From Deroplatys truncata (Eukaryota; Arthropoda; Insecta; Mantodea; Mantidae), in the NCBI GenBank assembly GCA_030765065.1, contig CM060978.1:59300421-59364420 (forward strand): a stretch of 64,000 bases of DNA, written 5' to 3'. The notes beneath the pieces were generated by a model. That model made no database searches. It saw nothing but the letters and a program-made list of their open reading frames with translations, and was not told where the DNA came from. The stretch's first letter is position 1; each line of letters begins with the position of its first letter. Both the position numbers and the translations under genes were made by a program. This document shows positions 36,974 through 63,261 of this stretch, in pieces.

Positions 36974-37129
36974 TGTAAATCGAGCCGAATGGCTCAAGCA
37001 GTAACGTCTATGGTGCGCATTCGGGAGTTTGCGGGTTCAAATCCCGTAGGCCGACCTATCTGACTAGTTCTTTTTGTGGTTTCCCTTCAGTCACCAAAGG
37101 AAATAGCGGATTGGATACTTTTAGTAATG
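36974..37129 (+). repeat. tRNA-derived SINE, family B head
   Basis: gagccgaatggctcaagcag gives the A-box region. Next come the family block taacgtctatggtgcgcatt and a perfect B box (gggttcaaatccc, 37,036-37,048). The body is short (ctgactagttc to ggtttccc) and runs into the trinucleotide array. The acceptor arms do not pair well, so it is not a functional tRNA gene. Confidence 0.65.
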
Positions 37130-40064
<2,935 letters not shown>

Positions 40065-42762: not shown

Positions 42763-42915
42763 ATGTTGCCATGGTAGCTCAGTGGTTAGAGCAACCGGAC
42801 GGAGAATGGGAGATCCGTGGTTCAAATCGCGGCTATAGCATTGAATTTTTCAGTCGTTTGACACTACCTTTCCTACCCTGTCCAACACACGGCTTGTGTG
42901 GAAGAACAATTAATT
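42763..42915 (+). repeat. tRNA-derived SINE, family D
   Basis: The head gttgccatggtagctcagtg has a good A box (tagctcagtgg) and the B box ggttcaaatcg (42,823-42,833). The body is short and unrelated to the other SINE families here. The acceptor stem does not close well, so a functional tRNA gene is unlikely. Confidence 0.6.
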
Positions 42916-42920
42916 CCATT

Positions 42921-43425
42921 AAAAAATCTGATATATTACACTCACATGACTTTCTCTACTCCTGTACAAACTATTTTTACAAACGCTTATTCTCCATATG
43001 ACTCATGTTAATCGAGATGTTAATCTTATTGCTAATTTTCTTGTAGATGCAAGGGGAATATGGAAGTCTTTAAGCGATAGTCAAATATTTTAAGAGCTGG
43101 TTGCTATGTGTAGAATTCCATTCTCTGTGCATTAACAGGACAAAAAAAATGAATAACGAATTTGAGAAAAAGTATAAGTATTGGAAAATTAAAGGGAATA
43201 ACAAGCAATATCTGGAAAATGGTTCACTCAATAAAAAAAATGTATATGGCATAAATTGTATATTTTAACGCGATCTACATTTTTATGTAGTAAAATTTTG
43301 TCTATCTCTTATGGTTTACCAGTTATGCAAAAGTCGTTCACAATAAAGAATACTTTTGGAGACATTCCTTGAAAATTCAAGATATACATTTTATTTGCAC
43401 AAAAATATCTTAAACATATGATATT
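42921..43425 (-). repeat. Repeat A minus copy, part before the palindromic element
   Basis: It runs from aaaaaatctgatatattac to aaacatatgatatt. The next expected bases (ttaatcaaaatc...) appear at 58,697 onward, so the 15.3-kb element sits inside this copy. Confidence 0.85.
43420..43425 (+). other. Target-site duplication, left (GATATT)
   Basis: gatatt occurs once at this place in uninterrupted repeat A copies (for example at about 42,249). Here it is present on both sides of the element. Confidence 0.85.
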
Positions 43426-43449
43426 AGTAGAATATATAAGACAGACCTG

Positions 43450-44330
43450 GGCCAGTTTTTGCGTTTATATGGGAAAGGATAGGGAAAACGAGGGTAGATG
43501 CTAGGCTAGGAGAGCATCCAAGGAGGAAAAATGCGTTTATATGGGGGAGATAGGGATTACGAGGAGAGTTGTCAGGCTAGACAGGGCTCGAGTAGAGTAT
43601 ACAATTATATACGAAAAATAGGGAGTAGATGATAATGCTAGGCAGGTGCTGAAGAAGGGAGAGTATGCGTTTATATGAGAGAGGTAGGGAACAGGAGCAG
43701 GGGTGTTAGGCTAGGCAGAGATCAAGAAGTAGAGTATGCTTTATATGAAAGGTATAGGAAAACGAGGAGGGGTGTTAGGCTAGACAGAGTTGAAGGGTAG
43801 AGCATGTCTTGTATATGAGAGGGCTAGGGAACAGGAGCAGGGGTGTTAGGCTAGGCAGAGATCAAGAAGTAGAGTATGGTTTATATGAAAGGTATAGGAA
43901 AACGAGGAGGGGTGTTAGGCTAGACAGAGTTGAAGGGTAGAGCATGTCTTGTATATGAGAGAGGTAGGGAACAGGAGCAAGGGTGTTAGGCTAGGCAGAG
44001 ATCAAGAAGTAGAGTATGCTTTATATGAAAGGTATAGGAAAACGAGGAGGGGTGTTAGGCTAGACAGAGTTGAAGGGTAGAGTATGTCCTTTATATGAGA
44101 GAGGTTGGGAACAGGAGGAGGGGTGTTAGGTTAGGAGAATTGAGTATGCGTTTATAAGGAGAGACGAGAAAACGGAGAGAGATCCTATGCTAGGATAGAC
44201 AGGTGTTAAAGTTAGGTTAGATAGGAAACCAAGGAGTGATACTCAGCTAGAGGGGGAGGCAGGAGGAATGCGATTTATGAGAGGTAGGGGATACGGGGAG
44301 AAATGCTAGGGAAGACAGGGACTGAAGGTA
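43450..44330 (+). repeat. Subterminal tandem repeats, left
   Basis: Degenerate units of about 70 bp share gcgtttatatg, a tagggaaaac/caggag block and ggtgttaggctaggcagag. In the middle they form a sharper 140-bp period: the acaggagcag block recurs at 43,691, 43,831, 43,971 and 44,111. Noncoding. The position next to the terminus suggests a role in replication or packaging of a protein-primed replicon, but nothing here proves it. Confidence 0.9.
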
Positions 44331-44339
44331 TGTAGGGTG

Positions 44340-45430
44340 TTTTCCAGAAGGGAAGAGCAAGAATTTCAGAGGTATTTAGAGCACAATATAACTATTTTAG
44401 ATCACACTTAGAAGCTTTTTAACAACATGCTTAGCTAACTTTGCAGGTATGCTGATGCTGTTTTAATGCGGTGGAACAGACATTTAACATCCTCTTACTG
44501 GCTTTAAAATATTTTTAGACACAGATACAGATACGTGTTTTAGGGTATTGGTGTAAGCATTTTAGCCAGTGTACTAGGAATTGTGGAGCATTTTGGGCTT
44601 CATTTAGAGACATTTTAGACACAGGTACAGGTATTTTTTGATATGAACAAGGCTTTCAGAACATTCTGGTATGAGGCAGGGGAATTTTAGATGTTTCAAC
44701 AGCATTTGGGGAACTGGAGCAGGTAGACTCAGGGTATTGATATAGACTTCAGAATATTTCGAGGTGTTTTATGATGCTTTTAAGGTATTTTGACAATTTT
44801 AAAGACGTTTTCAAAGCTCGTGCTAGAAGTGTTTGTGGCTCTTTAAAGGTATTTTAGGTTATGGATGGGGCATAGGCACAGACCATTAAGAGTTCCTAAA
44901 GAGACTTTTGGGAAGAGTAGCAGCTGTTTTATAGGCTTTTGAATAAGTGTAGTGGCTGTTTTGTCGGCTTTTGGATAAGTGTAGTGACTGTTTATTGGCT
45001 TTGATAAATGTAGTGGCTGTTTTTATGAGGGCTTTTAGGAAATGGTTTTCAGGCATTCTCTCTTGTTTATAGAGTTTTTCTCTTGTATTACACAGGTCTT
45101 ATGATCTATAACCATTTCTAACGTTTTTACAGTCATATCGGATCCTTTTATGATCTTCTCAATATTCTAATGCTACCATGTATGAAAGTATGTAGAGATG
45201 CCTTTTATAACCCAACCTTAAGATCTGATAGTGATATTATTGTTTTTATTCTGCTTTTCTGTTTTTGTATGGTTAATTGTTGGCTAGGTGTATCGTCTTT
45301 ACCAGTTAATTGGTGCTTTATTAGATAAGGATTGTAAGGGTAGGTGCCTCTCCCCTTTTATCTAGGCTTGAGACTAGCACTAGGATTTGCTCCTAATGGC
45401 AGGGTTACCGCCTCCCTTCTACATTCTTAT
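44340..45430. other. Noncoding part of left arm
   Basis: No frame of note. A run of about three 32-bp units (gtagtggctgttttgtcggc type) lies at about 44,900-45,020, and an equivalent run lies at 57,095-57,220 in the right arm. Confidence 0.6.
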
Positions 45431-45434
45431 TTTT

Positions 45435-45440
45435 ATTTAT
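45435..45440 (-). terminator. Poly(A) signal, left-arm polymerase
   Basis: AATAAA on the minus strand, about 100 bp after the polymerase stop, in the run ataaataaaaat. It mirrors 56,675-56,680. Confidence 0.5.
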
Positions 45441-45539
45441 TCTTAGGTGTCTGCTAGATGTATACACAGTACATGGCAAACTTCCACTTTTTAAAGTTGT
45501 AGACTCACGAGAAAATTATCATCTAAGGATTAGATTCTC

Positions 45540-47729
45540 TTAGGCACTGCTTGTAATGCTGTAATGGCCATATGCATATGTCGTTATTCCATCCTCTGCA
45601 ACGACTCTTTTATCGTCGTATGGAGTCAATGCAATTTTATTCACTTGCACTGTGGTAACAGTATGTTTTCGTGACAGGATCAGATTCATGGGTGTCCTTA
45701 TTATTTCTCTGGCTTTAAGACAGTCTGTATAACTGTCGAATGTGATGTGCTGCTTAATAGCGCCACGTTTTATACCTTTAATCTTTTTTATGATTGAGCC
45801 GTGGATATCTAGCGCATACATCTTAGGTCGCAGTCCGACAAAGCGTTGGATGATTTTACCATTAGCCTCATCTTTAAATTTTCCAAGCACTTTCTTGTTT
45901 AGAGCTGAATAGCATATATGGTTTGTAGGATAATCAGCCGTATCCAGATGCTCAAGAAAACGTAGCTTGTCCTTGTACACATCTTCAGTTGTAACTTGAT
46001 GGATGAATGAATCAGTGTCCATATACATCAGCTTCAGGTTTTCAACTCCATAATGCGGTAACAACACATCATAATGATAGTGGTACATTAATGTCTTGGA
46101 GATGTCCAACACACTCATTCCAATGTATATAGGCTTGTTGAAGACGATCTGTCGGGAGGTCATATGCACAGCAGCTAGATTGGTAGCATATATTGTTCGA
46201 TCGATAAACGTAGGCTTTGCAATTAACTTTTCCAGAGTCTTCTCGTTTGCCACCAACCGTATATCCACACGATTACGAAGGTTCTCCATTGTTTTTCCAA
46301 ACATAGCATTGTTGAACAGTTTGTAGAGATCCTTCTCAAAATCATTTGCAGCCTTTTGTCGGAGTCTATTGTTAAATTCCACATACGGTTTTAACCACTG
46401 TGACTGTCGGAATTGTAGCACACGATGGATTTTTGTTAGTCGTAGTCCATGACTAAGAGCTTGCTTCAAAGTCATGTAATGCACTACATACTTCTTTCGT
46501 GATCCAAGGTGAGGAATTAACTTCTTTGTAGTAGACTCCTTTGGTTTAAGACACTCAGGCAGGAATGGTAAATCATTATGCAGATCATGGAGTTCAGCAG
46601 GATACTCGATGTCAACTTCTAATATGTATCCATGAGGATCATATTCTTCCAGTCTTTGTAAGTTTATTTCTTCAGGTAAAACCCACTGAAATCCACCAAA
46701 AGGAAGGGCGTGACACATTTCCCACCCATATTGGTTATTAGCGTCCTCATATGTGATGAATTGGGTTGGTCTCGACGGATCAAACTTTTCCATGTAAGTG
46801 TTATTAGCCTCTGCATACCGATGGGACGCTTGGCATAAACCTCCTCTTATGCCGGATTCCACCATGAGTAGTTGGTCATAATCCTGTAACAGCTCCAGTT
46901 CGATTCCAGTATACAGTAACATGGCGTCCCATGTAAGTCCTGGAGAGGTAAAATAATGTGCTGGATCAACTTTGTGCGTTTTGAGAGTTTGCTCTCTGAA
47001 TGTCTCAAAGACATCAGCTAGAAGAAGAACATCAGATATTAAGTAGAGATCACTGTATTCACCCAGGTTTCTCACATTGAACAGTCTCCATACATTTCCA
47101 GCATGTTCGTAGTCAGCATCACTAATTTCTTCTTCATTCAGTTTATTGTAGAAGTAGTTCTTAGGAGGCAGGCAGGTATCGTTCAAGACGTCCCATGAAG
47201 TGACGTAATCATAGGGAAATACACCCTTACGTGTCATCAACTTCATCCTGTCTTCTCCGAAGTACTTCAATGTTTCAGGGTACGATGCTAGATTTTTTAC
47301 CAGCTTATCCAAGCTTGTACTCAGGAACCGAAAACTATCTACAAAACGGAGCTTTATATCTCCTACATACTTGGAGAATGAGATATAGCTTTCTTCAGAG
47401 CTAGGAATTACCTCCACACGTTCACTTGTACATCCCAACTCCTTAACAATGAAGTGTGAGTCATACCCACTGAGGTTGTGCATGAAGACAGGAATATATT
47501 TAGGCGTTTTACAGGCTAAATTGCATTCATTATGAAGACTTCCCCGATATTCACCACTGATGTGATCATGGTCGCGTACTTTATAGTTTTCTTCAGTAAA
47601 GGGTTTTCCACACAAGTAGCATACTATAGAAGACTCAAAATCCTTTTGCTGTTGATCTGTAAGTTTCAGGGGCATGACAGATTTGTATATATTATTAATC
47701 TCCTTTGCAAGGAATGACAGGTATTCCAT
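45540..47729 (-). CDS. Family B DNA polymerase, exonuclease II-polymerase part (left arm)
   Basis: A 729-codon frame on the left arm, reading away from the apex. Like the right copy it holds, in order, a treble-clef CxxC...DHDH...HxxC module (residues 37-69), Exo II (N85, Y89-D90), Exo III (Y229, D233), motif A (D329), motif B, motif C (D571-T-D573) and the K636-M-Y block. Motif B here keeps the expected glycine (N-A-M-F-G-K, Gly478), unlike the right arm. Motif A has Glu337 where the right arm has Ala. Eight residues differ from the right copy, all between about 290 and 480. It starts after an in-frame TAG (47,736-47,738), seven bases upstream of this ATG, so on its own it lacks Exo I. Either it is translated by readthrough or reinitiation, or it is a dead gene. 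Product: protein-primed DNA polymerase of the Polinton/Maverick type. Confidence 0.85.
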   Translation of the reverse strand: MEYLSFLAKEINNIYKSVMPLKLTDQQQKDFESSIVCYLCGKPFTEENYKVRDHDHISGEYRGSLHNECNLACKTPKYIPVFMHNLSGYDSHFIVKELGCTSERVEVIPSSEESYISFSKYVGDIKLRFVDSFRFLSTSLDKLVKNLASYPETLKYFGEDRMKLMTRKGVFPYDYVTSWDVLNDTCLPPKNYFYNKLNEEEISDADYEHAGNVWRLFNVRNLGEYSDLYLISDVLLLADVFETFREQTLKTHKVDPAHYFTSPGLTWDAMLLYTGIELELLQDYDQLLMVESGIRGGLCQASHRYAEANNTYMEKFDPSRPTQFITYEDANNQYGWEMCHALPFGGFQWVLPEEINLQRLEEYDPHGYILEVDIEYPAELHDLHNDLPFLPECLKPKESTTKKLIPHLGSRKKYVVHYMTLKQALSHGLRLTKIHRVLQFRQSQWLKPYVEFNNRLRQKAANDFEKDLYKLFNNAMFGKTMENLRNRVDIRLVANEKTLEKLIAKPTFIDRTIYATNLAAVHMTSRQIVFNKPIYIGMSVLDISKTLMYHYHYDVLLPHYGVENLKLMYMDTDSFIHQVTTEDVYKDKLRFLEHLDTADYPTNHICYSALNKKVLGKFKDEANGKIIQRFVGLRPKMYALDIHGSIIKKIKGIKRGAIKQHITFDSYTDCLKAREIIRTPMNLILSRKHTVTTVQVNKIALTPYDDKRVVAEDGITTYAYGHYSITSSA

Positions 47730-47735
47730 AAACTT

Positions 47736-49192
47736 CTAAGCAGCATCAACACCACGATATACATAGGGATGCTTAGGAAGACCAGTTTCCAGATGTTCAA
47801 CGCTGGTTGATGGTTTAACGTAAACACAGAAGCTCATTGCTGTATGCTCTTGATAAGGGGTTGTATAAGAAGTTTCAGGACTGGGTATGCATGTATGACA
47901 TGGAGTGAGAATGCTTTCAAAGTCTGCGTAGATGACGTAAGATAGTTTCAACATCCTTTCAAAATTTTTAAACTGTACAATTGATTTCTCCTTTGTAGGC
48001 ATAACTACCCTTGCAACACCATGCTGATTACAGATGGATACATGTTCTTGCAGCTTTTCCAGTCCACTTCGTCCATACTGATTGTCAAAGTGAGTAAAGC
48101 ACCGCTTGCAGGTATATATCACTCCATCATGCTTAGTTTTCTGACGTCGAACGAGCTTCTCAAAATTCTTGATATATACATAGTGATGTTTTCCACTACT
48201 ATCACTCAATAGTAGGAGGTCACGGTGATCAGATAGCTCAGTGTCAGCAACCTTTGTCGGATACACTTCATGCTTCTCATCCAATCCGAAAACGTTGATA
48301 GACATCCTATTAAGCTTCTCAAATTTAGGTATTTGAGAAAGTGGAGTAGCATAGGAAACGCAGCTGAAGTTGTACTTATCTTGAAGCTGTTTGTATTTAC
48401 TGACGCGTTGAGGCTTGGTGCTGACGAATTTGGCCAATACAGAATATATAAAACATTGCTCATCCTTATAGTTTTGAATGTTAATGCAGGCTTTCCTTGC
48501 TTCAATAGATGGAGGTAGGGGTATGTAGCTACTGCCTCGTAAGGGGTTGTACTTGTTAATACGAAGACGCACCCCTTCCACAGCAAGGAGAGCCCAGTTG
48601 CTTCCCTTCAGTTGTGAATCCTCCATTTCAGTAACCAACTTCTTCATTTTCGTTTCCAGCATAGAGTCCAGATCCGTTTCTAAGAATGCAGCTTGATTCC
48701 GTGTTTTAAATGTTTTGTCACAGGTTTCTCCGATACTGTTTACAAATCGGCACTCAACCAGCAGATTAATTTTCACACTCTTGTGAATACCAAGCTCTTT
48801 ATGCACTGCCTGGATTATTCGTTGTTTGGCCTCATGCAGGTACATATTCAAGTCCTTAGATGAATCGCATCGTATAAAATACGATTTCAATCGTCCTTCG
48901 AACGCTGTCTCGTATTCTTTCATGTCGCAGTCCTCCATTGTGGATAATATGTGATGTTTGGTAGGCTCCAATCTGCTTTTCTTCTGAGGACTGCTTATTT
49001 CACATACGTCCTCGTGCCGCTGTCCCTTATAACCATCATTAAAGGTTACATTACAATGTTTACATTTGAAGAGCTTCTTGCAGCTCATCTCGTGTCTTCT
49101 CTTGTCATAACTTCGGAGGATTCCTTTCTACATTTACTACAAGCTTATCCAGTAGCGCTTGGAATAATATCCTTATACGCTGAGTTATTCAT
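47736..49192 (-). pseudogene. Family B DNA polymerase, N-terminal part, damaged (left arm)
   Basis: This is homologous to 52,923-54,380. The first ATG (49,190-49,192) is followed at codon 16 by TAA where the right arm has TAC. A single T is also missing around codon 25 (ggaatcc against ggaattcc). The open part therefore begins at an internal Met (49,088; Met36 of the right copy). The first of two N-terminal C2HC fingers is lost and the second remains. The rest, including the C-x2-C...H-x3-C module and the Exo I block YADFES, is intact. Four residues differ from the right copy over the shared 450. It ends at the same TAG as the right copy. Confidence 0.85.
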
Positions 49193-49351
49193 CTTTATTC
49201 TTGATGCAATAACGTATTAATCCTTCTTCAAGGGAAATGTAAACCTTTTTGCCTTGATAACACTTTAGAAAGCTGATTATTCTTGGCGAGAACACGATGT
49301 TAACACCGCAAGACTAATTAGCGCAATGAAGTCCAGTGCCCGCGGTCACCC

Positions 49352-49359
49352 TATTTATA
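49352..49359 (-). promoter_or_regulatory. TATA box, left-arm polymerase
   Basis: TATAAATA on the minus strand, about 160 bp upstream of the first polymerase ATG. It mirrors 52,756-52,763. Confidence 0.5.
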
Positions 49360-49483
49360 GAGCTAGCACGAACCTTTTAGATCAATTATATACTGAATTT
49401 TAATAATAAAACGATGATTAAGCGTCTAAACTCTTATATCTCAATACGTTACACAGGTATTCGGACGTTTCCGTAGGTGTTCG

Positions 49484-49790
49484 AACATGTTCGTGTGTTT
49501 GGAGAGGTGCTCGAATGTGTTGTGTATGTCTGCGTATGTATCTGTGTGTGTATGTGTTTTGAACTGTCTCGGGGTGTGCGTGTCTGTGTGTGTGTGTGTC
49601 TGTGTGTATGTGTGTGTATGTCTATGCGCGTCTGTGTGTATGTTTATGTGTGTGTGTTTTGAACTGTCTCGGGGTGTGTATGTCTGCGTGTGTGTGTGTA
49701 TGTCCGTGGGTGTGTGTCTGCGTGTGTGTGTGTATGAGTCTGTGTGTTTATGTCTGTGTATGTGTGTGTGTGTGTGCAGGGCTGTGTGCT
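49484..49790 (+). repeat. TG-rich microsatellite region, left arm
   Basis: Interrupted (TG)n with two copies of a ttttgaactgtctcggggtg spacer (about 49,556 and 49,656), so a compound repeat of about 100 bp. It is followed by an A/G-rich run (49,795-49,865). The Cys/Val-rich frames here are artefacts. It lies upstream of the polymerase promoter. Confidence 0.9.
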
Positions 49791-49869
49791 GATCAAGAAG
49801 AAGAAAGGAATAAAGTAGAAAGGAAGAAGGAAAGAAAGAAAGAATAAAAACAGAAAGAAAGAAAATTAA

Positions 49870-50556
49870 GAATTTTAATTCAGACCTGAGGATACTTAAG
49901 TATACTTATAAATATATATGGGTTAAACACTTTTTATTCCAGCCGTATATGTCTCCTAGTTTAATATTTATGAACCATTAAATTTTTATAAAGATTCGAA
50001 CAAGGACCATAGGTTACCTAAGTACATATCACGGTTTAACACAGATAATGAATTACATCTAATAAATACATTTTTGATCCGTCCATACAACTCCCTTAGT
50101 TTAATAGCTATTGATCATTAAATATTTTGCTCTAAGATAATAGTAAAAAATTAATCCTTAAATAGCTTGATTACAATTATTTTCTAATGATACCTGAAAA
50201 GTCTTTCACTAAGCCTCTTAGTGCTATAAACTTATTCTGATTTTACCATATTTGTCTAAGTCTTTTAACTCATTAAGAATTAAACATTTAGGTTTTACCG
50301 ATTCGAGGTCGGATATGAACTTCGGACTCCTAAATAGTTGTTCAGAGAATCTATCCACTGCTATCAATTTAATGTAATTTGTTCGAAGAGTCTAGCTGCC
50401 CTACTTCGGGAATAATGAAACATCAAAGTTTAAAACGCTGGTGAGACTCGAACTCCGGTCCCTAGAGATATCTTTCCGTAACTAATCAATAATACAAGAC
50501 TATGTGAATCCTTGTTGATGCTAAAAGGGCATAAGTTAGTAGCTTATATTTGGGGT
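49870..50556. other. Apex-proximal noncoding part of left arm
   Basis: AT-rich, without frames. It contains a tRNA-like stretch around 50,440-50,470 (ctggtgagactcgaactccgg), which on the minus strand reads as a B box (gttcgagtctcacc). The same occurs mirrored at 51,660-51,675. The arms stop matching at 50,556. Confidence 0.5.
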
Positions 50557-51556
50557 GTAGAGTATCAATTCTTGGTAGCGATATTTATTTGTAGTTCTAG
50601 TTATTAAAATTATTTTCTTGGTAAATATCGACGTTTTTAGAACGCTTCGGAGAAATGCAGGCAGGACCTTTTAACAAGACATGGGGAGAAGCCACTAGGG
50701 CGAAGCTTGGATACAATAGCCGCTAAATTGTATACAGAAGGGGAGATTGCGATAAGGGTGATGCGTGCTGTATAGTCTGTGCTCCAAAAATTGGTATACA
50801 GAATTTCTTATTCTTCTATACCGCTTACAGAAGGTTTAGCGTTCTTATCAGGGTATTTAAGTACAGAGTGACGCTTGTTAACCGTTAAAGCTAAATATTC
50901 CAATATTTTTTCATCGCTTGTGATTCCACTCTGCAAAATTTCTCATTGTAATAAAGAGGTATGCTTTAGTTAGCGAACATCGCATACTAGCCATTCTACG
51001 ATACCTTTCAGAAACCTCCTGTTGCATTTTAGCGGATAACACTAGCATGTTATCGACCCGTACAAGCAACAAGTCTCGGTAGGATGGTGAAAATTAAACC
51101 TTTTCACTCGTTAGGAGCGTTCGCCACAAAAATTGAAACTTGTATTTTTTTATTTGATGTATATGAGCTGATGGCGTTTAGGTCGGGGTCTTGCTCTAAA
51201 GCCCTCCACGTGGCCGGGAATGACAAACTGTAAACTCTCCAGTATCCTTGTTTTGATGGTGAACTCTCATACACTTTAGGTCGGGTCTTGCACGAAAGAC
51301 CAATTGAAACAATTAAAGACCCTTCCAATACCAAAGATCACGTGTCCTGTGCTGGAAGACTCATGCTACTTGGGTTGGCTTTGCCTGAAAGACCAATTGA
51401 AACAATTAAAGACCCTTCCAATACCTAAGATCACGTGACCTGTGCTAGAAGACTCATGCTACTTGGGTCGGCTTTGCACGAAACACCAATTAAACCCAAT
51501 TAAAATCAATTAAACCCAATTAAAGACATGTTACTTGTGTCGTTCTTGTGCTAGAA
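50557..51556. other. Unique apex (spacer) of the palindrome
   Basis: About 1,000 bp with no inverted partner. It holds no convincing gene; a 76-codon minus frame at 51,104-51,334 spans the tandem repeats. The right third holds 93-bp repeats. This would be the single-stranded loop if one strand folded back on itself. Confidence 0.85.
51175..51545 (+). repeat. 93-bp tandem repeats with CACGTG, in the apex
   Basis: Two good units (gaaagaccaattgaaacaat at 51,294 and 51,387), a third degenerate one from 51,480 and a looser one before 51,275. CACGTG occurs at 51,207-51,212, 51,339-51,344 and 51,432-51,437, in the last case as the palindrome TCACGTGA. Function unknown. Confidence 0.85.
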
Positions 51557-52320
51557 ACCCCAAATACAAGCTACTAACTTATGCCCTTTTAGCATCAACA
51601 AGGATTCACATAGTCTTGTATTATTGATTAGTTACGGAAAGATATCTCTAGGGACCGGAGTTCGAGTCTCACCAGCGTTTTAAACTTTGATGTTTCATTA
51701 TTCCCGAAGTAGGGCAGCTAGAGTCTTCGAACAAATTACATTAAATTGATAGCAGTGGATAGATTCTCTGAACAACTATTTAGGAGTCCGAAGTTCATAT
51801 CCGACCTCGAATCGGTAAAACCTAAATGTTTAATTCTTAATGAGTTAAAAGACTTAGACAAATATGGTAAAATCAGAATACGTTTATAGCACTAAGAGGC
51901 TTAGTGAAAGACTTTTCAGGTATCATTAGAAAATAATTGTAATCAAGCTATTTAAGGATTAATTTTTTACTATTATCTTAGAGCAAAATATTTAATGATC
52001 AATAGCTATTAAACTAAGGGAGTTGTATGGACGGATCAAAAATGTATTTATTAGATGTAATTCATTATCTGTGTTAAACCGTGATATGTACTTAGGTAAC
52101 CTATGGTCCTTGTTCGAATCTTTATAAAAATTTAATGGTTCATAAACATTAAACTAGGAGACATATACGGCTGGAATAAAAAGTGTTTAACCCATATATA
52201 TTTATAAGTATACTTAAGTATCCTCAGGTCTGAATTAAAATTCTTAATTTTCTTTCTTTCTGTTTTTCTTCTTTCTTTCTTTCCTTCTTCCTTTCTACTT
52301 TATTCCTTTCTTCTTCTTGA
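51557..52320. other. Apex-proximal noncoding part of right arm
   Basis: Mirror of 49,790-50,556. No frames. The B-box-like gttcgagtctcacc lies at 51,660-51,673, without an A box that I can recognise. Confidence 0.5.
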
Positions 52321-52640
52321 TCAACACACAGCCCTGCACATACACACACACATACACAGACATAAACACACAGACTCATACACACACACACGCAGACACA
52401 CACCCACGGACATACACACACACACGCAGACATACACACCCCGAGACAGTTCAAAACACACACACATAAACATACACACAGACGCGCATAGACATACACA
52501 CACATACACACAGACACACACACACACAGACACGCACACCCCGAGACAGTTCAAAACACATACACACACACAGATACATACGCAGACATACACAACACAT
52601 TCGAGCACCTCTCCAAACACACGAACATGTTCGAACACCT
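52321..52640 (+). repeat. CA-rich microsatellite region, right arm
   Basis: Mirror of 49,484-49,790, with the ccccgagacagttcaaaaca spacer at about 52,439 and 52,538. One CA unit longer than the left arm near 52,560. Confidence 0.9.
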
Positions 52641-52755
52641 ACGGAAACGTCCGAATACCTGTGTAACGTATTGAGATATAAGAGTTTAGACGCTTAATCA
52701 TCGTTTTATTATTAAAATTCAGTATATAATTGATCTAAAAGGTTCGTGCTAGCTC

Positions 52756-52763
52756 TATAAATA
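52756..52763 (+). promoter_or_regulatory. TATA box, right-arm polymerase
   Basis: tataaata in the context ctctataaataggg, with a plausible start about 25-30 bp on (gcactggacttcatt, 52,777-52,791). That leaves a leader of about 135-140 bp before the ATG at 52,923. This suggests the gene was transcribed by RNA polymerase II. Confidence 0.55.
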
Positions 52764-52922
52764 GGGTGACCGCGGGCACTGGACTTCATTGCGCTAATTA
52801 GTCTTGCGGTGTTAACATCGTGTTCTCGCCAAGAATAATCAGCTTTCTAAAGTGTTATCAAGGCAAAAAGGTTTACATTTCCCTTGAAGAAGGATTAATA
52901 CGTTATTGCATCAAGAATAAAG

Positions 52923-54380
52923 ATGAATAACTCAGCGTATAAGGATATTATTCCAAGCGCTACTGGATACGCTTGTAGTAAATGTAGAAAGGAATTCCTC
53001 CGAAGTTATGACAAGAGAAGACACGAGATGAGCTGCAAGAAGCTCTTCAAATGTAAACATTGTAATGTAACCTTTAATGATGGTTATAAGGGACAGCGGC
53101 ACGAGGACGTATGTGAAATAAGCAGTCCTCAGAAGAAAAGCAGATTGGAGCCTACCAAACATCACATATTATCCACAATGGAGGACTGCGACATGAAAGA
53201 ATACGAGACAGCGTTCGAAGGACGATTGAAATCGTATTTTATACGATGCGATTCATCTAAGGACTTGAATATGTACCTGCATGAGGCCAAACAACGAATA
53301 ATCCAGGCAGTGCATAAAGAGCTTGGTATTCACAAGAGTGTGAAAATTAATCTGCTGGTTGAGTGCCGATTTGTAAACAGTATCGGAGAAACCTGTGACA
53401 AAACATTTAAAACACGGAATCAAGCTGCATTCTTAGAAACGGATCTGGACTCTATGCTGGAAACGAAAATGAAGAAGTTGGTTACTGAAAAGAAGGATTC
53501 ACAACTGAAGGGAAGCAACTGGGCTCTTCTTGCTGTGGAAGGGGTGCGTCTTCGTATTAACAAGTACAACCCCTTACGAGGCAGTAGCTACATACCCCTA
53601 CCTCCATCTATTGAAGCAAGGAAAGCCTGCATTAACATCCAAAACTATAAGGATGAGCAATGTTTTATATATTCTGTATTGGCCAAATTCGTCAGCACCA
53701 AGCCTCAACGCGTCAGTAAATACAAACAGCTTCAAGATAAGTACAACTTCAGCTGCGTTTCCTATCCTACTCCACTTTCTCAAATACCTAAATTTGAGAA
53801 GCTTAATAGGATGTCTATCAACGTTTTCGGATTGGATGAGAAGCATGAAGTGTATCCGATAAAGGTTGCTGACACTGAGCTATCTGATCACCGTGACCTC
53901 CTACTATTGAGTGATAGTAGTGGAAAACATCACTATGTATATATCAAGAATTTTGAGAAGCTCGTTCGACGTCAGAAAACTAAGCATGATGGAGTGATAT
54001 ATACCTGCAAGCGGTGCTTTACTCACTTTGACAATCAGTATGGACGAAGTGGACTGGAAAAGCTGCAAGAACATGTATCCATCTGTAATCAGCATGGTGT
54101 TGCAAGGGTAGTTATGCCTACAAAGGAGAAATCAATTGTACAGTTTAAAAATTTTGAAAGGATGTTGAAACTATCTTACGTCATCTACGCAGACTTTGAA
54201 AGCATTCTCACTCCATGTCATACATGCATACCCAGTCCTGAAACTTCTTATACAACCCCTTATCAAGAGCATACAGCAATGAGCTTCTGTGTTTACGTTA
54301 AACCATCAACCAGCGTTGAACATCTGGAAACTGGTCTTCCTAAGCATCCCTATGTATATCGTGGTGTTGATGCTGCTTAG
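52923..54380 (+). CDS. Family B DNA polymerase, N-terminal and Exo I part (right arm)
   Basis: 485 codons from the first ATG after the TATA box. Two tandem C-x2-C-x12-H-x3-C fingers open the protein (C18, C21, H34, C38 and C44, C47, H60, C64). A third C2HC-type module is at C362, C365, H384, C388. The Exo I block of the proofreading exonuclease is YADFES with D424 and E426. The frame stops at TAG (54,378-54,380), and the next codons continue in the same frame into the rest of the polymerase at 54,387. One in-frame amber codon thus splits the gene, and the left arm has the same one. In this family Exo I and the polymerase motifs are normally in one chain. Zinc-finger N-termini are seen in insect Polinton-type polymerases. 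Whether it is read through is unknown. Confidence 0.9.
   Translation: MNNSAYKDIIPSATGYACSKCRKEFLRSYDKRRHEMSCKKLFKCKHCNVTFNDGYKGQRHEDVCEISSPQKKSRLEPTKHHILSTMEDCDMKEYETAFEGRLKSYFIRCDSSKDLNMYLHEAKQRIIQAVHKELGIHKSVKINLLVECRFVNSIGETCDKTFKTRNQAAFLETDLDSMLETKMKKLVTEKKDSQLKGSNWALLAVEGVRLRINKYNPLRGSSYIPLPPSIEARKACINIQNYKDEQCFIYSVLAKFVSTKPQRVSKYKQLQDKYNFSCVSYPTPLSQIPKFEKLNRMSINVFGLDEKHEVYPIKVADTELSDHRDLLLLSDSSGKHHYVYIKNFEKLVRRQKTKHDGVIYTCKRCFTHFDNQYGRSGLEKLQEHVSICNQHGVARVVMPTKEKSIVQFKNFERMLKLSYVIYADFESILTPCHTCIPSPETSYTTPYQEHTAMSFCVYVKPSTSVEHLETGLPKHPYVYRGVDAA
54378..54380 (+). other. In-frame TAG splitting the polymerase
   Basis: The context is gct gct TAG aag ttt atg. Upstream and downstream frames are the same (54,387 minus 52,923 is divisible by three). 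The left arm has the identical codon at 47,736-47,738. The downstream context lacks the CARYYA readthrough signal. Confidence 0.95.
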
Positions 54381-54386
54381 AAGTTT

Positions 54387-56576
54387 ATGGAATACCTGTC
54401 ATTCCTTGCAAAGGAGATTAATAATATATACAAATCTGTAATGCCCTTGAAACTTACAGATCAACAGCAAAAGGATTTTGAGTCTTCTATAGTATGCTAC
54501 TTGTGTGGAAAACCCTTTACTGAAGAGAACTATAAAGTACGCGACCATGATCACATCAGTGGTGAATATCGGGGAAGTCTTCATAATGAATGCAATTTAG
54601 CCTGTAAAACGCCTAAATATATTCCTGTCTTCATGCACAACCTCAGTGGGTATGACTCACACTTCATTGTTAAGGAGTTGGGATGTACAAGTGAACGTGT
54701 GGAGGTAATTCCTAGCTCTGAAGAAAGCTATATCTCATTCTCCAAGTATGTAGGAGATATAAAGCTCCGTTTTGTAGATAGTTTTCGGTTCCTGAGTACA
54801 AGCTTGGATAAGCTGGTAAAAAATCTAGCATCGTACCCTGAAACATTGAAGTACTTCGGAGAAGACAGGATGAAGTTGATGACACGTAAGGGTGTATTTC
54901 CCTATGATTACGTCACTTCATGGGACGTCTTGAACGATACCTGCCTGCCTCCTAAGAACTACTTCTACAATAAACTGAATGAAGAAGAAATTAGTGATGC
55001 TGACTACGAACATGCTGGAAATGTATGGAGACTGTTCAATGTGAGAAACCTGGGTGAATACAGTGATCTCTACTTAATATCTGATGTTCTTCTTCTAGCT
55101 GATGTCTTTGAGACATTCAGAGAGCAAACTCTCAAAACGCACAAAGTTGATCCAGCACATTATTTTACCTCTCCAGGACTTACATGGGACGCCATGTTAC
55201 TGTATACTGGAATCGAACTGGAGCTGTTACAGGATTATGACCAACTACTCATGGTGGAATCCGGCATAAGAGGAGGTTTATGCCAAGTGTCCCATCGGTA
55301 TGCAGAGGCTAATAACACTTACATGGAAAAGTTTGATCCGTCGAGACCAACCCAATTCATCACATATGAGGACGCTAATAACCAATATGGGTGGGCAATG
55401 TGTCACGCCCTTCCTTTTGGTGGATTTCAGTGGGTTTCACCTGAAGAAATAAACTTACAAAGACTGGAAGAAGATGATCCTCATGGATACATATTAGAAG
55501 TTGACATCGAGTATCCTGCTGAACTCCATGATCTGCATAATGATTTACCATTCCTGCCTGAGTGTCTTAAACCAAATGAGTCTACTACAAAGACGTTAAT
55601 TCCTCACCTTGGATCACGAAAGATGTATGTAGTGCATTACATGACTTTGAAGCAAGCTCTTAGTCATGGACTACGACTAACAAAAATCCATCGTGTGCTA
55701 CAATTCCGACAGTCACAGTGGTTAAAACCGTATGTGGAATTTAACAATAGACTCCGACAAAAGGCTGCAAATGATTTTGAGAAGGATCTCTACAAACTGT
55801 TCAACAATGCTATGTTTGTAAAAACAATGGAGAACCTTCGTAATCGTGTGGATATACGGTTGGTGGCAAACGAGAAGACTCTGGAAAAGTTAATTGCAAA
55901 GCCTACGTTTATCGATCGAACAATATATGCTACCAATCTAGCTGCTGTGCATATGACCTCCCGACAGATCGTCTTCAACAAGCCTATATACATTGGAATG
56001 AGTGTGTTGGACATCTCCAAGACATTAATGTACCACTATCATTATGATGTGTTGTTACCGCATTATGGAGTTGAAAACCTGAAGCTGATGTATATGGACA
56101 CTGATTCATTCATCCATCAAGTTACAACTGAAGATGTGTACAAGGACAAGCTACGTTTTCTTGAGCATCTGGATACGGCTGATTATCCTACAAACCATAT
56201 ATGCTATTCAGCTCTAAACAAGAAAGTGCTTGGAAAATTTAAAGATGAGGCTAATGGTAAAATCATCCAACGCTTTGTCGGACTGCGACCTAAGATGTAT
56301 GCGCTAGATATCCACGGCTCAATCATAAAAAAGATTAAAGGTATAAAACGTGGCGCTATTAAGCAGCACATCACATTCGACAGTTATACAGACTGTCTTA
56401 AAGCCAGAGAAATAATAAGGACACCCATGAATCTGATCCTGTCACGAAAACATACTGTTACCACAGTGCAAGTGAATAAAATTGCATTGACTCCATACGA
56501 CGATAAAAGAGTCGTTGCTGAGGATGGAATAACGACATATGCATATGGCCATTACAGCATTACAAGCAGTGCCTAA
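54387..56576 (+). CDS. Family B DNA polymerase, exonuclease II-polymerase part (right arm)
   Basis: 729 codons. A treble-clef module resembling recombination endonuclease VII (C37, C40, D53-H-D-H56, H66, C69) sits between Exo I and Exo II, as in Polinton/adintovirus-type polymerases. Exo II is HNLSGYD (N85, Y89, D90). Exo III is YLISD (Y229, D233). Motif A is DANNQYG (D329). Motif B is KLFNNAMF-V-K, with Val478 where the left arm has Gly. Motif C is YMDTDS (D571, D573). The KxY-like block is RPKMY (K636). All metal-binding Asp residues are kept, but loss of the motif B glycine would be expected to harm dNTP/template binding. The family replicates linear DNA from a terminal protein. Poly(A) signal at 56,675. 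No other gene follows before the element's end. Confidence 0.9.
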   Translation: MEYLSFLAKEINNIYKSVMPLKLTDQQQKDFESSIVCYLCGKPFTEENYKVRDHDHISGEYRGSLHNECNLACKTPKYIPVFMHNLSGYDSHFIVKELGCTSERVEVIPSSEESYISFSKYVGDIKLRFVDSFRFLSTSLDKLVKNLASYPETLKYFGEDRMKLMTRKGVFPYDYVTSWDVLNDTCLPPKNYFYNKLNEEEISDADYEHAGNVWRLFNVRNLGEYSDLYLISDVLLLADVFETFREQTLKTHKVDPAHYFTSPGLTWDAMLLYTGIELELLQDYDQLLMVESGIRGGLCQVSHRYAEANNTYMEKFDPSRPTQFITYEDANNQYGWAMCHALPFGGFQWVSPEEINLQRLEEDDPHGYILEVDIEYPAELHDLHNDLPFLPECLKPNESTTKTLIPHLGSRKMYVVHYMTLKQALSHGLRLTKIHRVLQFRQSQWLKPYVEFNNRLRQKAANDFEKDLYKLFNNAMFVKTMENLRNRVDIRLVANEKTLEKLIAKPTFIDRTIYATNLAAVHMTSRQIVFNKPIYIGMSVLDISKTLMYHYHYDVLLPHYGVENLKLMYMDTDSFIHQVTTEDVYKDKLRFLEHLDTADYPTNHICYSALNKKVLGKFKDEANGKIIQRFVGLRPKMYALDIHGSIIKKIKGIKRGAIKQHITFDSYTDCLKAREIIRTPMNLILSRKHTVTTVQVNKIALTPYDDKRVVAEDGITTYAYGHYSITSSA

Positions 56577-56674
56577 GAGAATCTAATCCTTAGATGATAA
56601 TTTTCTCGTGAGTCTACAACTTTAAAAAGTGGAAGTTTGCCATGTACTGTGTATACATCTAGCAGACACCTAAG

Positions 56675-56680
56675 AATAAA
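56675..56680 (+). terminator. Poly(A) signal, right-arm polymerase
   Basis: aataaa in aagaataaataaaaataag, about 100 bp after the polymerase stop. Confidence 0.55.
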
Positions 56681-56689
56681 TAAAAATAA

Positions 56690-57780
56690 GAATGTAGAAG
56701 GGAGGCGGTAACCCTGCCATTAGGAGCAAATCCTAGTGCTAGTCTCAAGTCTAGATAAAAGGGGAGAGGCACCTACCCTTACAATCCTTATCTAATAAAG
56801 CACCAATTAACTGGTAAAGACGATACACCTAGCCAACAATTAACCATACAAAAACAGAAAAGCAGAATAAAAACAATAATATCACTATCAGAGCTTAAGG
56901 TTGGGTTATAAAAGGCATCTCTACATACTTTCATACATGGTAGCATTAGAATATTGAGAAGATCATAAAAGGATCCGATATGACTGTAAAAACGTTAGAA
57001 ATGGTTATAGATCATAAGACCTGTGTAATACAAGAGAAAAACTCTATAAACAAGAGAGAATGCCTGAAAACCATTTCCTAAAAGCCCTCATAAAAACAGC
57101 CACTACATTTATCAAAGCCAATAAACAGTCACTACACTTATCCAAAAGCCGACAAAACAGCCACTACACTTATTCAAAAGCCTATAAAACAGCTGCTACT
57201 CTTCCCAAAAGTCTCTTTAGGAACTCTTAATGGTCTGTGCCTATGCCCCATCCATAACCTAAAATACCTTTAAAGAGCCACAAACACTTCTAGCACGAGC
57301 TTTGAAAACGTCTTTAAAATTGTCAAAATACCTTAAAAGCATCATAAAACACCTCGAAATATTCTGAAGTCTATGTCAATACCCTGAGTCTACCTGCTCC
57401 AGTTCCCCAAATGCTGTTGAAACATCTAAAATTCCCCTGCCTCATACCAGAATGTTCTGAAAGCCTTGTTCATATCAAAAAATACCTGTACCTGTGTCTA
57501 AAATGTCTCTAAATGAAGCCCAAAATGCTCCACAATTCCTAGTACACTGGCTAAAATGCTTACACCAATACCCTAAAACACGTATCTGTATCTGTGTCTA
57601 AAAATATTTTAAAGCCAGTAAGAGGATGTTAAATGTCTGTTCCACCGCATTAAAACAGCATCAGCATACCTGCAAAGTTAGCTAAGCATGTTGTTAAAAA
57701 GCTTCTAAGTGTGATCTAAAATAGTTATATTGTGCTCTAAATACCTCTGAAATTCTTGCTCTTCCCTTCTGGAAAACACC
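56690..57780. other. Noncoding part of right arm
   Basis: Mirror of 44,340-45,430. It includes three to four 32-bp units (cagccactacacttattcaa type) at 57,095-57,220. No frame worth calling. Confidence 0.6.
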
Positions 57781-57784
57781 CTAC

Positions 57785-58670
57785 ATACCTTCAGTCCCTG
57801 TCTTCCCTAGCATTTCTCCCCGTATCCCCTACCTCTCATAAATCGCATTCCTCCTGCCTCCCCCTCTAGCTGAGTATCACTCCTTGGTTTCCTATCTAAC
57901 CTAACTTTAACACCTGTCTATCCTAGCATAGGATCTCTCTCCGTTTTCTCGTCTCTCCTTATAAACGCATACTCAATTCTCCTAACCTAACACCCCTCCT
58001 CCTGTTCCCAACCTCTCTCATATAAAGGACATACTCTACCCTTCAACTCTGTCTAGCCTAACACCCCTCCTCGTTTTCCTATACCTTTCATATAAAGCAT
58101 ACTCTACTTCTTGATCTCTGCCTAGCCTAACACCCTTGCTCCTGTTCCCTACCTCTCTCATATACAAGACATGCTCTACCCTTCAACTCTGTCTAGCCTA
58201 ACACCCCTCCTCGTTTTCCTATACCTTTCATATAAACCATACTCTACTTCTTGATCTCTGCCTAGCCTAACACCCCTGCTCCTGTTCCCTAGCCCTCTCA
58301 TATACAAGACATGCTCTACCCTTCAACTCTGTCTAGCCTAACACCCCTCCTCGTTTTCCTATACCTTTCATATAAAGCATACTCTACTTCTTGATCTCTG
58401 CCTAGCCTAACACCCCTGCTCCTGTTCCCTACCTCTCTCATATAAACGCATACTCTCCCTTCTTCAGCACCTGCCTAGCATTATCATCTACTCCCTATTT
58501 TTCGTATATAATTGTATACTCTACTCGAGCCCTGTCTAGCCTGACAACTCTCCTCGTAATCCCTATCTCCCCCATATAAACGCATTTTTCCTCCTTGGAT
58601 GCTCTCCTAGCCTAGCATCTACCCTCGTTTTCCCTATCCTTTCCCATATAAACGCAAAAACTGGCCCAGG
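57785..58670 (-). repeat. Subterminal tandem repeats, right
   Basis: Mirror of 43,450-44,330, with the same 70/140-bp periodicity (cctagcctaacacccctcct recurring). Unit number is the same in both arms. Confidence 0.9.
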
Positions 58671-58690
58671 TCTGTCTTATATATTCTACT

Positions 58691-58696
58691 GATATT
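58691..58696 (+). other. Target-site duplication, right (GATATT)
   Basis: Second copy of the hexamer. It is followed by ttaatcaaaatctttagagc, the expected continuation of repeat A. Confidence 0.85.
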
Positions 58697-62179: not shown

Positions 62180-62854
62180 TTCTTCTTCTTCTTCTTCTTC
62201 ATCTAACGCCCATCCTTGGCTGGTCTGCCATTCGACGCCTTGCCTCCCAGTACAGCCGTGAACTTCCTTCCATAGAATCTTCAACTATAACAGTCTGCAG
62301 GGCAGTGCAGGAGGCCAAATGGTCAGGAGTTCCTTCCTCTTGCAAGCAGAGGGGACAAATTGGGCTATCAACCACACCGATTCTATGCAGGTGTTTTTGC
62401 AAATAATCGTGCCCTGTAGTCATCCTAAAGGTAGCTACTGCCAGCTCCCGGGGCAGGTTGTTGGTGATGGGGTTTGAAGCAAGCATTTCCCATCTTTTAC
62501 CAGCTGCCGCTACCTTCCGAGAGTCTACAATTGCTCCTTTGATTCGAGATGTTATGACGCTACTGATGTTTGAGTATGTCATTGGTACAACTGGCTGCTC
62601 CATTGAGCACCCTTCCTTGGCTAAAGCGTCGGCTTTCTCATTTCCGTCAAGGTCGCAGTGGCCCGGGACCCATTGCAAACGAACTTCTGTCAATTCTTGC
62701 AGTTTATATAGCCTGTCTTGGCATTCAGTGACCAGATCGTCCTCATGTTGGTTTCCTTGCGAGCAGAGAGCTTGAATGGCTGAAGTGGAGTCGGATAAAA
62801 AGATCACTTTACACTGTACATTGATTGATATTAAGGCGATAGCTGCCTCACTGA
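62180..62854 (-). pseudogene. 5'-truncated LINE with intact RNase H-domain frame
   Basis: On the minus strand the element ends in (GAA)n directly after its stop codon, and that tail lies at the left against the duplicated target. The frame is open from the 5' breakpoint to the stop at 62,199. It gives FLSDSTSAIQAL (the DS...A block of RNase H), LQWVPGHCDLDGNEKADALA (W-PGH-...GNE-AD) and CPLCLQEEGTPDHLASC, the terminal zinc knuckle. A stop followed at once by a (GAA)n tail and a 9-bp duplication are hallmarks of target-primed reverse transcription. The unbroken frame suggests a young insertion. About 215 codons of ORF2 remain; reverse transcriptase and endonuclease are absent, so it is dead on arrival. 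Confidence 0.9.
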
Positions 62855-63261
62855 TAGATAACCGAAATGGTATTCTCTTGCAGCAGGACACTGCAACACC
62901 CCATACTGCACGAACAATTATGAAAAAAATTCAGGAATTGGAGGAAGTCGAACTCCTACCACACCCAATATATAGCCCTGATCTTGCGCCTTGATATTAC
63001 CATATGTTTCGATCCATGACATATTTCTTGCGTAGAAGAAATTTCGAAAACATTGCAGCTGTGGAGGCCAGGTCTGACCGAATTCTTCGCTTCAAAAACC
63101 AGAGATTGGTACCATCTCGAGATAATAAACCTCGCTGAAACGTGGCTAAGACCCACAGAATCTGATGGTCTCTACTTTGAAAAGTAGTTTAAATTCTTGT
63201 CAGAAAACGTCCCAAATAAAGTTTTGCTTAAAGGCCGACATTACTTGTGACACACCACCTA

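Follow-up and report, generated by a model that had tools for sequence, protein, structure and literature searches.

A palindromic element of ~15 kb at positions 43426-58690 of a 64-kb stretch of Deroplatys truncata DNA (the window) is one copy of a transposon family of several hundred members that is palindromic in nearly every sampled copy. Integration as a whole palindrome, as proposed in the initial annotation of this locus, is strongly supported: palindromic copies lie at unrelated sites with 6-bp target duplications of their own, and most of the centres examined have a common apex and common breakpoints. We consider it probable that the family is a Polinton-derived, self-complementary PolB replicon whose arms are re-copied in replication and which is integrated in trans.

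Structure and coding content of the focal element

The inverted arms had been described as near-identical, and alignment bore this out, with 29 substitutions and 3 gap columns over 7,134 positions (99.55% identity). The apex between them is single copy at the focal locus, as had been claimed, and related apices are present elsewhere in the genome. Termini of the AG...CT type were likewise recovered, with AGTAGAATATATAAGACAG read at both ends of the element, and the 6-bp copies of GATATT noted on both sides directly adjoin it (Table 1). When the two flanks were joined by script, 16 other copies in the window of the interrupted repeat aligned across the junction. Exactly one GATATT was found at the joined junction in 7 of these 16 copies and a diverged version in the remainder, among which one copy was gapped over the whole GATATT site and one had a 5-base gap beside it.

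Table 1. Features of the focal palindromic element, in coordinates of the window
Feature	Position	Strand	Remarks
Left target site duplication	43420..43425	.	GATATT
Left terminus	43426..43447	+	AGTAGAATATATAAGACAGACC
Left arm	43426..50556	+	7,131 bp
Subterminal minisatellite, left arm	43637..44135	+	69-71/140-bp units
PolB C-terminal part ORF, left arm	45540..47729	-	729 aa, outward; PF03175, PF02945
PolB N-terminal part ORF, left arm	47736..49088	-	450 aa; sub-threshold zinc-finger matches only
GT-rich microsatellite, left arm	49516..49776	.	
Apex	50557..51556	.	1,000 bp
93-bp tandem repeats within apex	51279..51504	.	
Right arm	51557..58690	-	7,134 bp; inverted copy of left arm
CA-rich microsatellite, right arm	52337..52572	.	
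PolB N-terminal part ORF, right arm	52923..54380	+	485 aa
PolB C-terminal part ORF, right arm	54387..56576	+	729 aa, outward
Subterminal minisatellite, right arm	57981..58462	-	
Right terminus	58669..58690	-	sequence identical to left terminus
Right target site duplication	58691..58696	.	GATATT

Of the two outward-reading DNA polymerase genes in the initial annotation, the orientation stood, with one correction: the same in-frame stop splits each gene into two ORFs, and therefore neither PolB is intact in this copy. In a 20-row PolB set, this stop was found in both arms of the focal element and in none of the 18 other rows. The PolB matches PF03175 (E 1.8e-25) and resembles adintoviruses in being 47% identical to the PolB of a Megastigmus wasp adintovirus. 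A PDB search by sequence gave no match; in a fold search with a low-confidence model of the C-terminal part (pLDDT 62), the first nine PDB matches were phi29 polymerase. No relative was found in viral contigs searched with the C-terminal part alone, and a search of viral contigs with a 13-sequence alignment found two loci (39-42% identity), both of which lack long inverted repeats.

Besides the four PolB parts, the focal element has no further ORF of at least 150 aa with a start codon. Neither a retroviral-type (rve) integrase nor capsid, ATPase or protease genes were found in the four PolB ORFs and four small arm and apex ORFs, and no terminal protein gene was found in the ORFs of the element. 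One of the four small ORFs had only a match to YlaH, below the cut-off.

A palindromic family in the host genome

A search of the host genome for the same terminus, which the initial annotation had proposed, was made with a degenerate pattern and returned 311 forward and 291 reverse matches, with 0 + 0 matches for a reversed-pattern control. Among the first 100 matches listed, 42 facing terminus pairs were present. Elements were sampled as the first 20 terminus pairs of >9 kb on C1-C2 among 100 rows listed, leaving out C1:218, which had been read earlier, and three pairs of <5 kb. Related copies that are never palindromic would have counted against the initial annotation; the outcome was the opposite, with 18 of the 20 sampled copies palindromic, in a sample drawn with an exact terminus pattern that favours intact copies. 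Seventeen were inverted-identical at 97-100% over 0.6-1 kb when compared 2.5-3.5 kb inside the element, and the eighteenth at 99.3% when an offset was allowed. In C1:170.06 an inverted match was confined to the stretch 0.8-2.5 kb inward of the right end, more than half of which is minisatellite, and no palindrome was demonstrated in the remaining copy, C1:224.88. In the central 3 kb of C1:153.73, short inverted matches only were found.

In most members that were checked, both arms carry the same DNA polymerase gene. Among 40 scored matches for each PolB half, 16 close PolB pairs were identified, all of them in the (-,+) arrangement. The family comprises two subfamilies at ~87% DNA identity. 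The arm that was read in one palindrome, C1:223.64, lacks PolB, and this palindrome retains its apex together with the outer and inner parts of the arm. In 9 of 13 centres, counting the focal one, a common apex is bounded by the same two breakpoints, and a tenth has this apex with one of them; the 13 are made up of 10 PolB-pair centres (focal included) and three apex matches picked by apex similarity.

Target duplications of 6 bp were exact in 22 of 25 elements and matched at five of six positions in two, while one had mirrored flanks; in a control with mismatched left and right flanks, five of six was reached in 4 of 272 comparisons. This set takes in 16 of the 20 sampled elements and C2:121.73 from outside the sample. 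The duplication at C1:170.06 sits in a TATG repeat and hence carries little weight, and C1:223.64 was inserted with an exact duplication. The mirrored flanks, at C1:163.90, are inverted copies of each other at 100% identity over 1 kb or more and suggest that this locus holds either an assembly mirror or an inverted duplication of the chromosome. All 25 elements with ends read have AGTAG... at both ends, 17 of them having been picked by the terminus itself.

The initial annotation had also called for a full-length Polinton sharing the 7.1-kb arm, and this search came back empty, as did that for a helper or non-palindromic parent bearing this terminus. Lone PolB matches were considered as candidate non-palindromic parents and dropped: one of them, C1:256.03, proved palindromic at 99.9%, its partner having gone unscored, and such matches are therefore no evidence for parents.

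Sequence divergence between arms

The two arms of the same element were sisters in 8 of 8 elements, with arm divergence of 0-0.53% within elements compared with 0.60-4.50% between elements. By separating PolB changes specific to one arm from those shared by both arms, constraint in the mobile lineage was distinguished from near-neutral decay between the arms. Arm-specific changes gave a dN/dS of 0.68, which is near neutral (pooled, it falls slightly short of neutrality, p 0.045), whereas arm-shared changes were constrained at about 0.23, with four comparisons ranging from 0.13 to 0.48. The contrast between the two classes gave a Fisher p of 0.0003 by approximate counting, in a set composed of the best matches to the PolB of the window and thus biased toward intact copies. 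With arm-specific changes near neutral and arm-shared changes constrained, the arms were therefore alike at insertion and have decayed afterwards.

Proposed replication and integration, and related systems

The family would have descended from Polinton/adintovirus-type elements and retained little beyond the termini and PolB, one per arm. Its mobile form is the palindrome itself, which integrates in the manner of Polintons by duplicating 6 bp of target, and the arms would be made identical at each mobile cycle. The most likely route would be protein-primed, strand-displacing synthesis from the single type of terminus, in which copying follows fold-back of a displaced or nascent strand at the apex, such that one arm templates the other; after insertion the arms decay separately. 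Integration probably proceeds via a Polinton-type integrase supplied in trans. We infer that the cycle has an extrachromosomal phase in addition to protein priming, fold-back copying and a trans-acting integrase. Snap-back in protein-primed replication would be a reasonable mechanism, backed by the predicted phi29-like fold and by one copy in which the apex itself is inversely duplicated with a 57-bp spacer left. Arm sisterhood and the dN/dS contrast appear, from sequence comparison, to fit replication in which one arm is copied from the other.

Gene conversion keeps arms alike in sex-chromosome palindromes, and the arms of a mobile palindrome could be kept alike by chromosomal conversion after insertion rather than by replication. 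Sister arms in all eight elements would be expected under conversion as well, and the stop common to both focal arms fits conversion or replication copying. Decaying copies subject to conversion would gain neutral arm-shared changes, however, and the arm-shared changes observed are constrained; the arms of some elements have also drifted to 97%, and conversion is therefore inefficient. We regard this explanation as unlikely. It appears quite improbable that the family is a conventional cut-and-paste transposon whose inverted repeats are very long, whose PolB is cargo without a role in mobility and which has no fold-back copying. That reading would account for an element in which no integrase was found, so that some enzyme acts in trans, and for the insertion of C1:223.64 with no PolB in the arm read. 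Against it, the mobile lineage shows constraint on PolB, a cut-and-paste cycle does not restore arm likeness, and the family has AGT ends and a 6-bp duplication of Polinton type (PMC8097293).

Long palindromes are hard to assemble and C1:163.90 is mirror-like, as would be seen if the palindromes were artefacts of false mirrored joins. Such an origin is highly improbable, since 24 of 25 elements lie between differing flanks with target duplications that match, and since the arms have private mutations. The same assembly, moreover, gave Polinton ATPase matches of which 0 of 38 were paired or mirrored; these were matches of modest score (E up to 0.001) from 150 of 1,207 candidates scored, in a search that also gave matches in two of 14 control genomes. 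Chromosomal inverted duplication of an ordinary inserted Polinton, forming each palindrome in place, is similarly far from credible for the family, although the inverted flanks of C1:163.90 would agree with it. Independent events would not leave 24 of 25 elements directly bordered by target duplications that match at five or more of six bases (of which C1:170.06, in simple repeat, says little), nor would they give 9 of 13 centres one apex and both breakpoints in common. In-place duplication is refuted for the family by these data, and may apply at C1:163.90.

If the family is indeed a Polinton-derived replicon with re-copied arms, it may constitute a new class of transposon, for which we see about even chances: a linear replicon, self-complementary and with only one kind of end, that its polymerase would replicate by fold-back, rebuilding one arm from the other every cycle, so that mutations would be purged or fixed in both PolB copies together. 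Such a replicon would form a stable, diversifying lineage, with two PolB subfamilies and with dependants that lack PolB, and would rely on the integrase of a Polinton. Polintons are thought to connect transposons and DNA viruses, and their mode of replication is hardly known; several hundred inherited palindromes, near-perfect over 10-20 kb and spread across a large genome, would be a natural record of the replication process. Like the paired LTRs of a retrotransposon, the arms would mark every round of mobility by their identity, and template switches would be recorded in apex variants. If this is true, products of protein-primed fold-back can form a stable mobile lineage and are not merely dead ends.

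Vertebrate Mavericks have the end motifs (AG)3 and (AGT)2 with 6-bp duplications, and intact copies have inverted repeats of 46-1,447 bp (mean 402), according to PMC8097293. No description of a palindromic Polinton was found in titles and abstract openings among the literature matches listed, which lie largely outside the subscription literature, or in the available parts of PMC12747079, PMC12721341, PMC12220804 and PMC8097293. The palindromic family resembles Polintons/Mavericks in the Pfam family of its PolB, in termini of AGT type and in 6-bp target duplications. It differs in that 7.1-kb arms make up nearly the whole focal element, where Mavericks have repeats of several hundred bp around a unique gene block, and in that PolB occurs twice without the integrase, capsid, ATPase and protease genes that were sought. 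Elsewhere in this genome, capsid and ATPase genes are found in Polinton-type elements outside the palindromic family. One that codes for a capsid, at C10:79.07 Mb, combines a double-jelly-roll capsid gene with an ATPase and a PolB (40% identical), and comparison of the two stretches that were read gave no inverted copy.

Defective adenovirus genomes, by-products in infected cells, are protein-primed linear DNAs with one end inversely duplicated. The fold-back step can be pictured by analogy with them; in contrast, the palindromic family is inherited and integrating and has two subfamilies. Foldback-type elements and MITEs have long inverted repeats and are moved in trans, and we know of none with a constrained DNA polymerase on both arms. 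As a likeness to these elements, very short palindromic copies are also present in this genome.

Structure and gene content of the window element

Comparison of the window with itself recovered two inverted arms of 99.55% identity, with 29 substitutions and 3 gap columns between them, and the hexamer GATATT is present outside each end of the element. The element interrupts a dispersed repeat, and when its flanks were joined, 16 other copies of this repeat in the window aligned across the site. Exactly one GATATT was found at the site in 7 of these 16 copies; the remainder have diverged, one being gapped across the site and one carrying a 5-base gap adjoining it. The coordinates and the GATATT target duplication proposed in the initial annotation are correct.

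Coordinates of the palindromic element, its surroundings and selected related copies
Feature	Location	Length	Description
Palindromic element	window 43426-58690	15,265 bp	arms of 7,131 and 7,134 bp, apex of 1,000 bp
Inverted repeat pair (self-comparison)	window 43421-50556 and 58695-51557		
TAG trinucleotide array	window 37122-40064	2.9 kb	near-pure, ~981 units, then an AGA run; gives spurious ORFs of ~1,000 aa
Ordinary repeats around the element	window 42768-42840, 19559-20059, 62202-62930		respectively, a tRNA match that is weak and may be a SINE, and remnants of a Mos1-type HTH and of RNase H
Copy C1:163.90	C1:163905693-163921568		
Very short member	C1:16965016-16967836	2.8 kb	palindrome, outer 970 bp matching at 99.8%; exact duplication CCCAAT
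Very short member	C1:179242050-179242257	208 bp	imperfect palindrome, 81%; five-of-six duplication

Both arms encode a putatively protein-primed DNA polymerase B (PolB) as an N-terminal ORF of 450 or 485 aa and a C-terminal ORF of 729 aa, the latter matching DNA_pol_B_2 (E 1.8e-25, left arm) and Endonuclease_7. Two outward-reading polymerase genes had been described from the sequence; the outward direction holds, but neither copy is intact here, as an in-frame stop separates the N and C parts in both arms. Apart from the PolB parts, the element contains no ORF of at least 150 aa with a start codon, and no integrase or capsid domain was found in four small ORFs of the arms and apex. The closest proteins among the matches listed were a protein of the bee Hylaeus and unnamed metagenomic proteins (67-71% identity), with which the window PolB also grouped in a 25-sequence tree that included 22 picked from the 120 listed matches; an adintovirus PolB is 47% identical. 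The structure model of the PolB C part was weak (pLDDT 62). Its first nine PDB fold matches were phi29 DNA polymerase, the terminal-protein complex ranking first (E 1.9e-13), with the next polymerase at 9.5e-6.

Inverted repeats measure 46-1,447 bp in intact vertebrate Mavericks (PMC8097293), several hundred bp in Polintons, which have 6-bp duplications (PMC12747079), 232-858 bp in Oxyrrhis Polinton-like viruses (PMC12721341), and hundreds to thousands of bp in cryptophyte Polinton-like viruses (PMC12220804). By its polymerase, ends and duplication the element is a Polinton relative. However, it is unlike Polintons in gene content and architecture, and because three defining Polinton features do not hold for it, we do not class it as a Polinton.

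Palindromic copies in the host genome

The host genome (4.29 Gb, 818 contigs) was searched with the PolB C part and N part, scoring 40 of 7,813 and 40 of 6,235 candidates, respectively. Each search returned 16 close pairs and 8 singles, and 16 of 16 close pairs were oriented (-,+), i.e., outward. Among 38 scored matches to the Polinton packaging ATPase (PF04665), no two formed a pair within 25 kb. A 22-base terminus pattern occurred 311 times forward and 291 times in reverse (reversed-pattern control, 0 and 0), and 84 of the first 100 matches formed 42 facing pairs, mostly 10-20 kb long. As only the best candidates were scored, repeat counts from the DNA searches are lower bounds. A second subfamily, with the terminus AGTAGGATATATAGG, arms ~87% identical to those of the window and a centre of its own, shares the palindromic form: in one element, two stretches of 5 kb match inversely at 99.94%. 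In C2:121.73, a member of this subfamily named, like other copies, by contig and Mb position, the N part of PolB is divided between two frames, alike in both arms, a further arm-shared change.

From contigs C1 and C2 we sampled the first 20 terminus pairs exceeding 9 kb in length, excluding the previously read C1:218, and compared 1 kb read at 2.5-3.5 kb inside each end. Inverted copies were present in 17 elements (97-100% over 0.6-1 kb), and C1:175.34 was an eighteenth when an offset was allowed (99.3%). The refuting condition named in the initial annotation, that related copies are never palindromic, is contradicted by 18 of 20 pairs. In one of the 18, C1:153.73, the inverted matches across the central 3 kb are all short. 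C1:224.88 carries PolB on one side and not on the other and was not counted as palindromic, and in C1:170.06 an inverse match was shown for the outer part compared, 0.8-2.5 kb inside the right end, more than half of which is minisatellite. Each side of this copy bears a 21-bp minisatellite of at least ~1 kb, and one side alone also has an open frame of 388 aa resembling, by eye, a retroelement fragment.

Exact 6-bp duplications flanked 7 of the first eight elements read, the window's included, and five of six bases matched in the other. Among 17 further elements (C2:121.73 plus 16 from the sample of 20), 15 had exact duplications, that of C1:170.06 sitting in a simple repeat, and one matched at five of six. 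As a control, the left end of one element was paired with the right end of another, and five of six was reached in 4 of 272 pairings. The last of the 17, C1:163.90, also counted among the 18 palindromic copies, has flanks that are inverted copies of each other (100% over at least 1 kb); it may be an assembly mirror or fault, or an inverted duplication made in place. Of 13 centres compared, the window's own included, 9 have the window's apex, in one orientation or the other, bounded by the same pair of breakpoints. In a tenth, C7a, the apex lies at one breakpoint and the inner end of the other arm is lost; central parts are missing from C7b and C7d. One apex and both breakpoints common to unrelated sites mean that the palindrome was inherited as a unit, and together with the 6-bp duplications they uphold the earlier proposal of integration as a palindrome. 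C1:218 shows a second turn-round: its apex is present twice in inverted orientation, leaving a spacer of 57 bp.

Arm similarity and selection on PolB

A tree built from 20 arm pieces, representing 12 elements, placed the arms as sisters in all 8 elements with both arms included, 7 at 100% bootstrap and 1 with identical arms; divergence was 0-0.53% within elements versus 0.60-4.50% between them. Arm-specific differences in the PolB C part comprised 9 synonymous and 31 nonsynonymous changes in these 8 elements (dN/dS 0.92); the corresponding counts for another 14 elements were 29 and 65 (0.61), and the pooled dN/dS was 0.68, slightly below the neutral expectation (p 0.045). Arm-shared dN/dS in four between-element comparisons was 0.18, 0.13, 0.14 and 0.48 (pooled about 0.23), and the contrast with arm-specific changes gave a Fisher p of 0.0003, half counts being rounded and the counting approximate. 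Arm sisterhood and this contrast indicate that PolB was retained by selection during mobility and that arms were alike at insertion, drifting afterwards. Among 20 rows, each a best match, none had a stop in the C-part frame, and the window's in-frame stop was absent from the other 18.

In C1:223.64, PolB is absent from the left arm over the stretch read, which runs from 1 kb inwards as far as the centre, yet the element retains the outer arm, inner arm and apex; the two arms match at 99.6% in the 1-kb pieces. In C2:33.99 the apex is retained, the arms match at 100% and the pieces read contain no PolB. PolB loss was thus apparently carried over to both arms, and these elements apparently moved with help.

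Possible mechanism and helper elements

In protein-primed replication, as in phi29 and adenovirus, synthesis initiates at a terminus, with displacement of one strand. We infer that a displaced strand of the element could base-pair with itself along 7 kb and be copied round the apex. Such fold-back copying would account for the single type of end, the identity of the arms at insertion and the apex variants. Mismatch repair in such a self-paired hairpin would likewise level the arms.

As no integrase was found in the element, integration was probably carried out in trans by a Polinton integrase. The full-length Polinton sharing the arm, which the initial annotation proposed looking for, was not found in the host-genome searches, nor was a helper or a non-palindromic parent. 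Capsid-coding Polintons do exist there: a Polinton-type element at C10:79.07 Mb combines a PolB of 40% identity with a double-jelly-roll capsid gene (E 4.8e-109) and a neighbouring ATPase. It is non-palindromic in the part read, where stretches of 8 kb and 9 kb share no inverted copy; neither of its ends was located, which leaves it as no more than a candidate helper. In the ATPase-bearing Polinton-type elements read from the host genome, an ORF adjoining the ATPase resembles, by its motif, a phospholipase A2.
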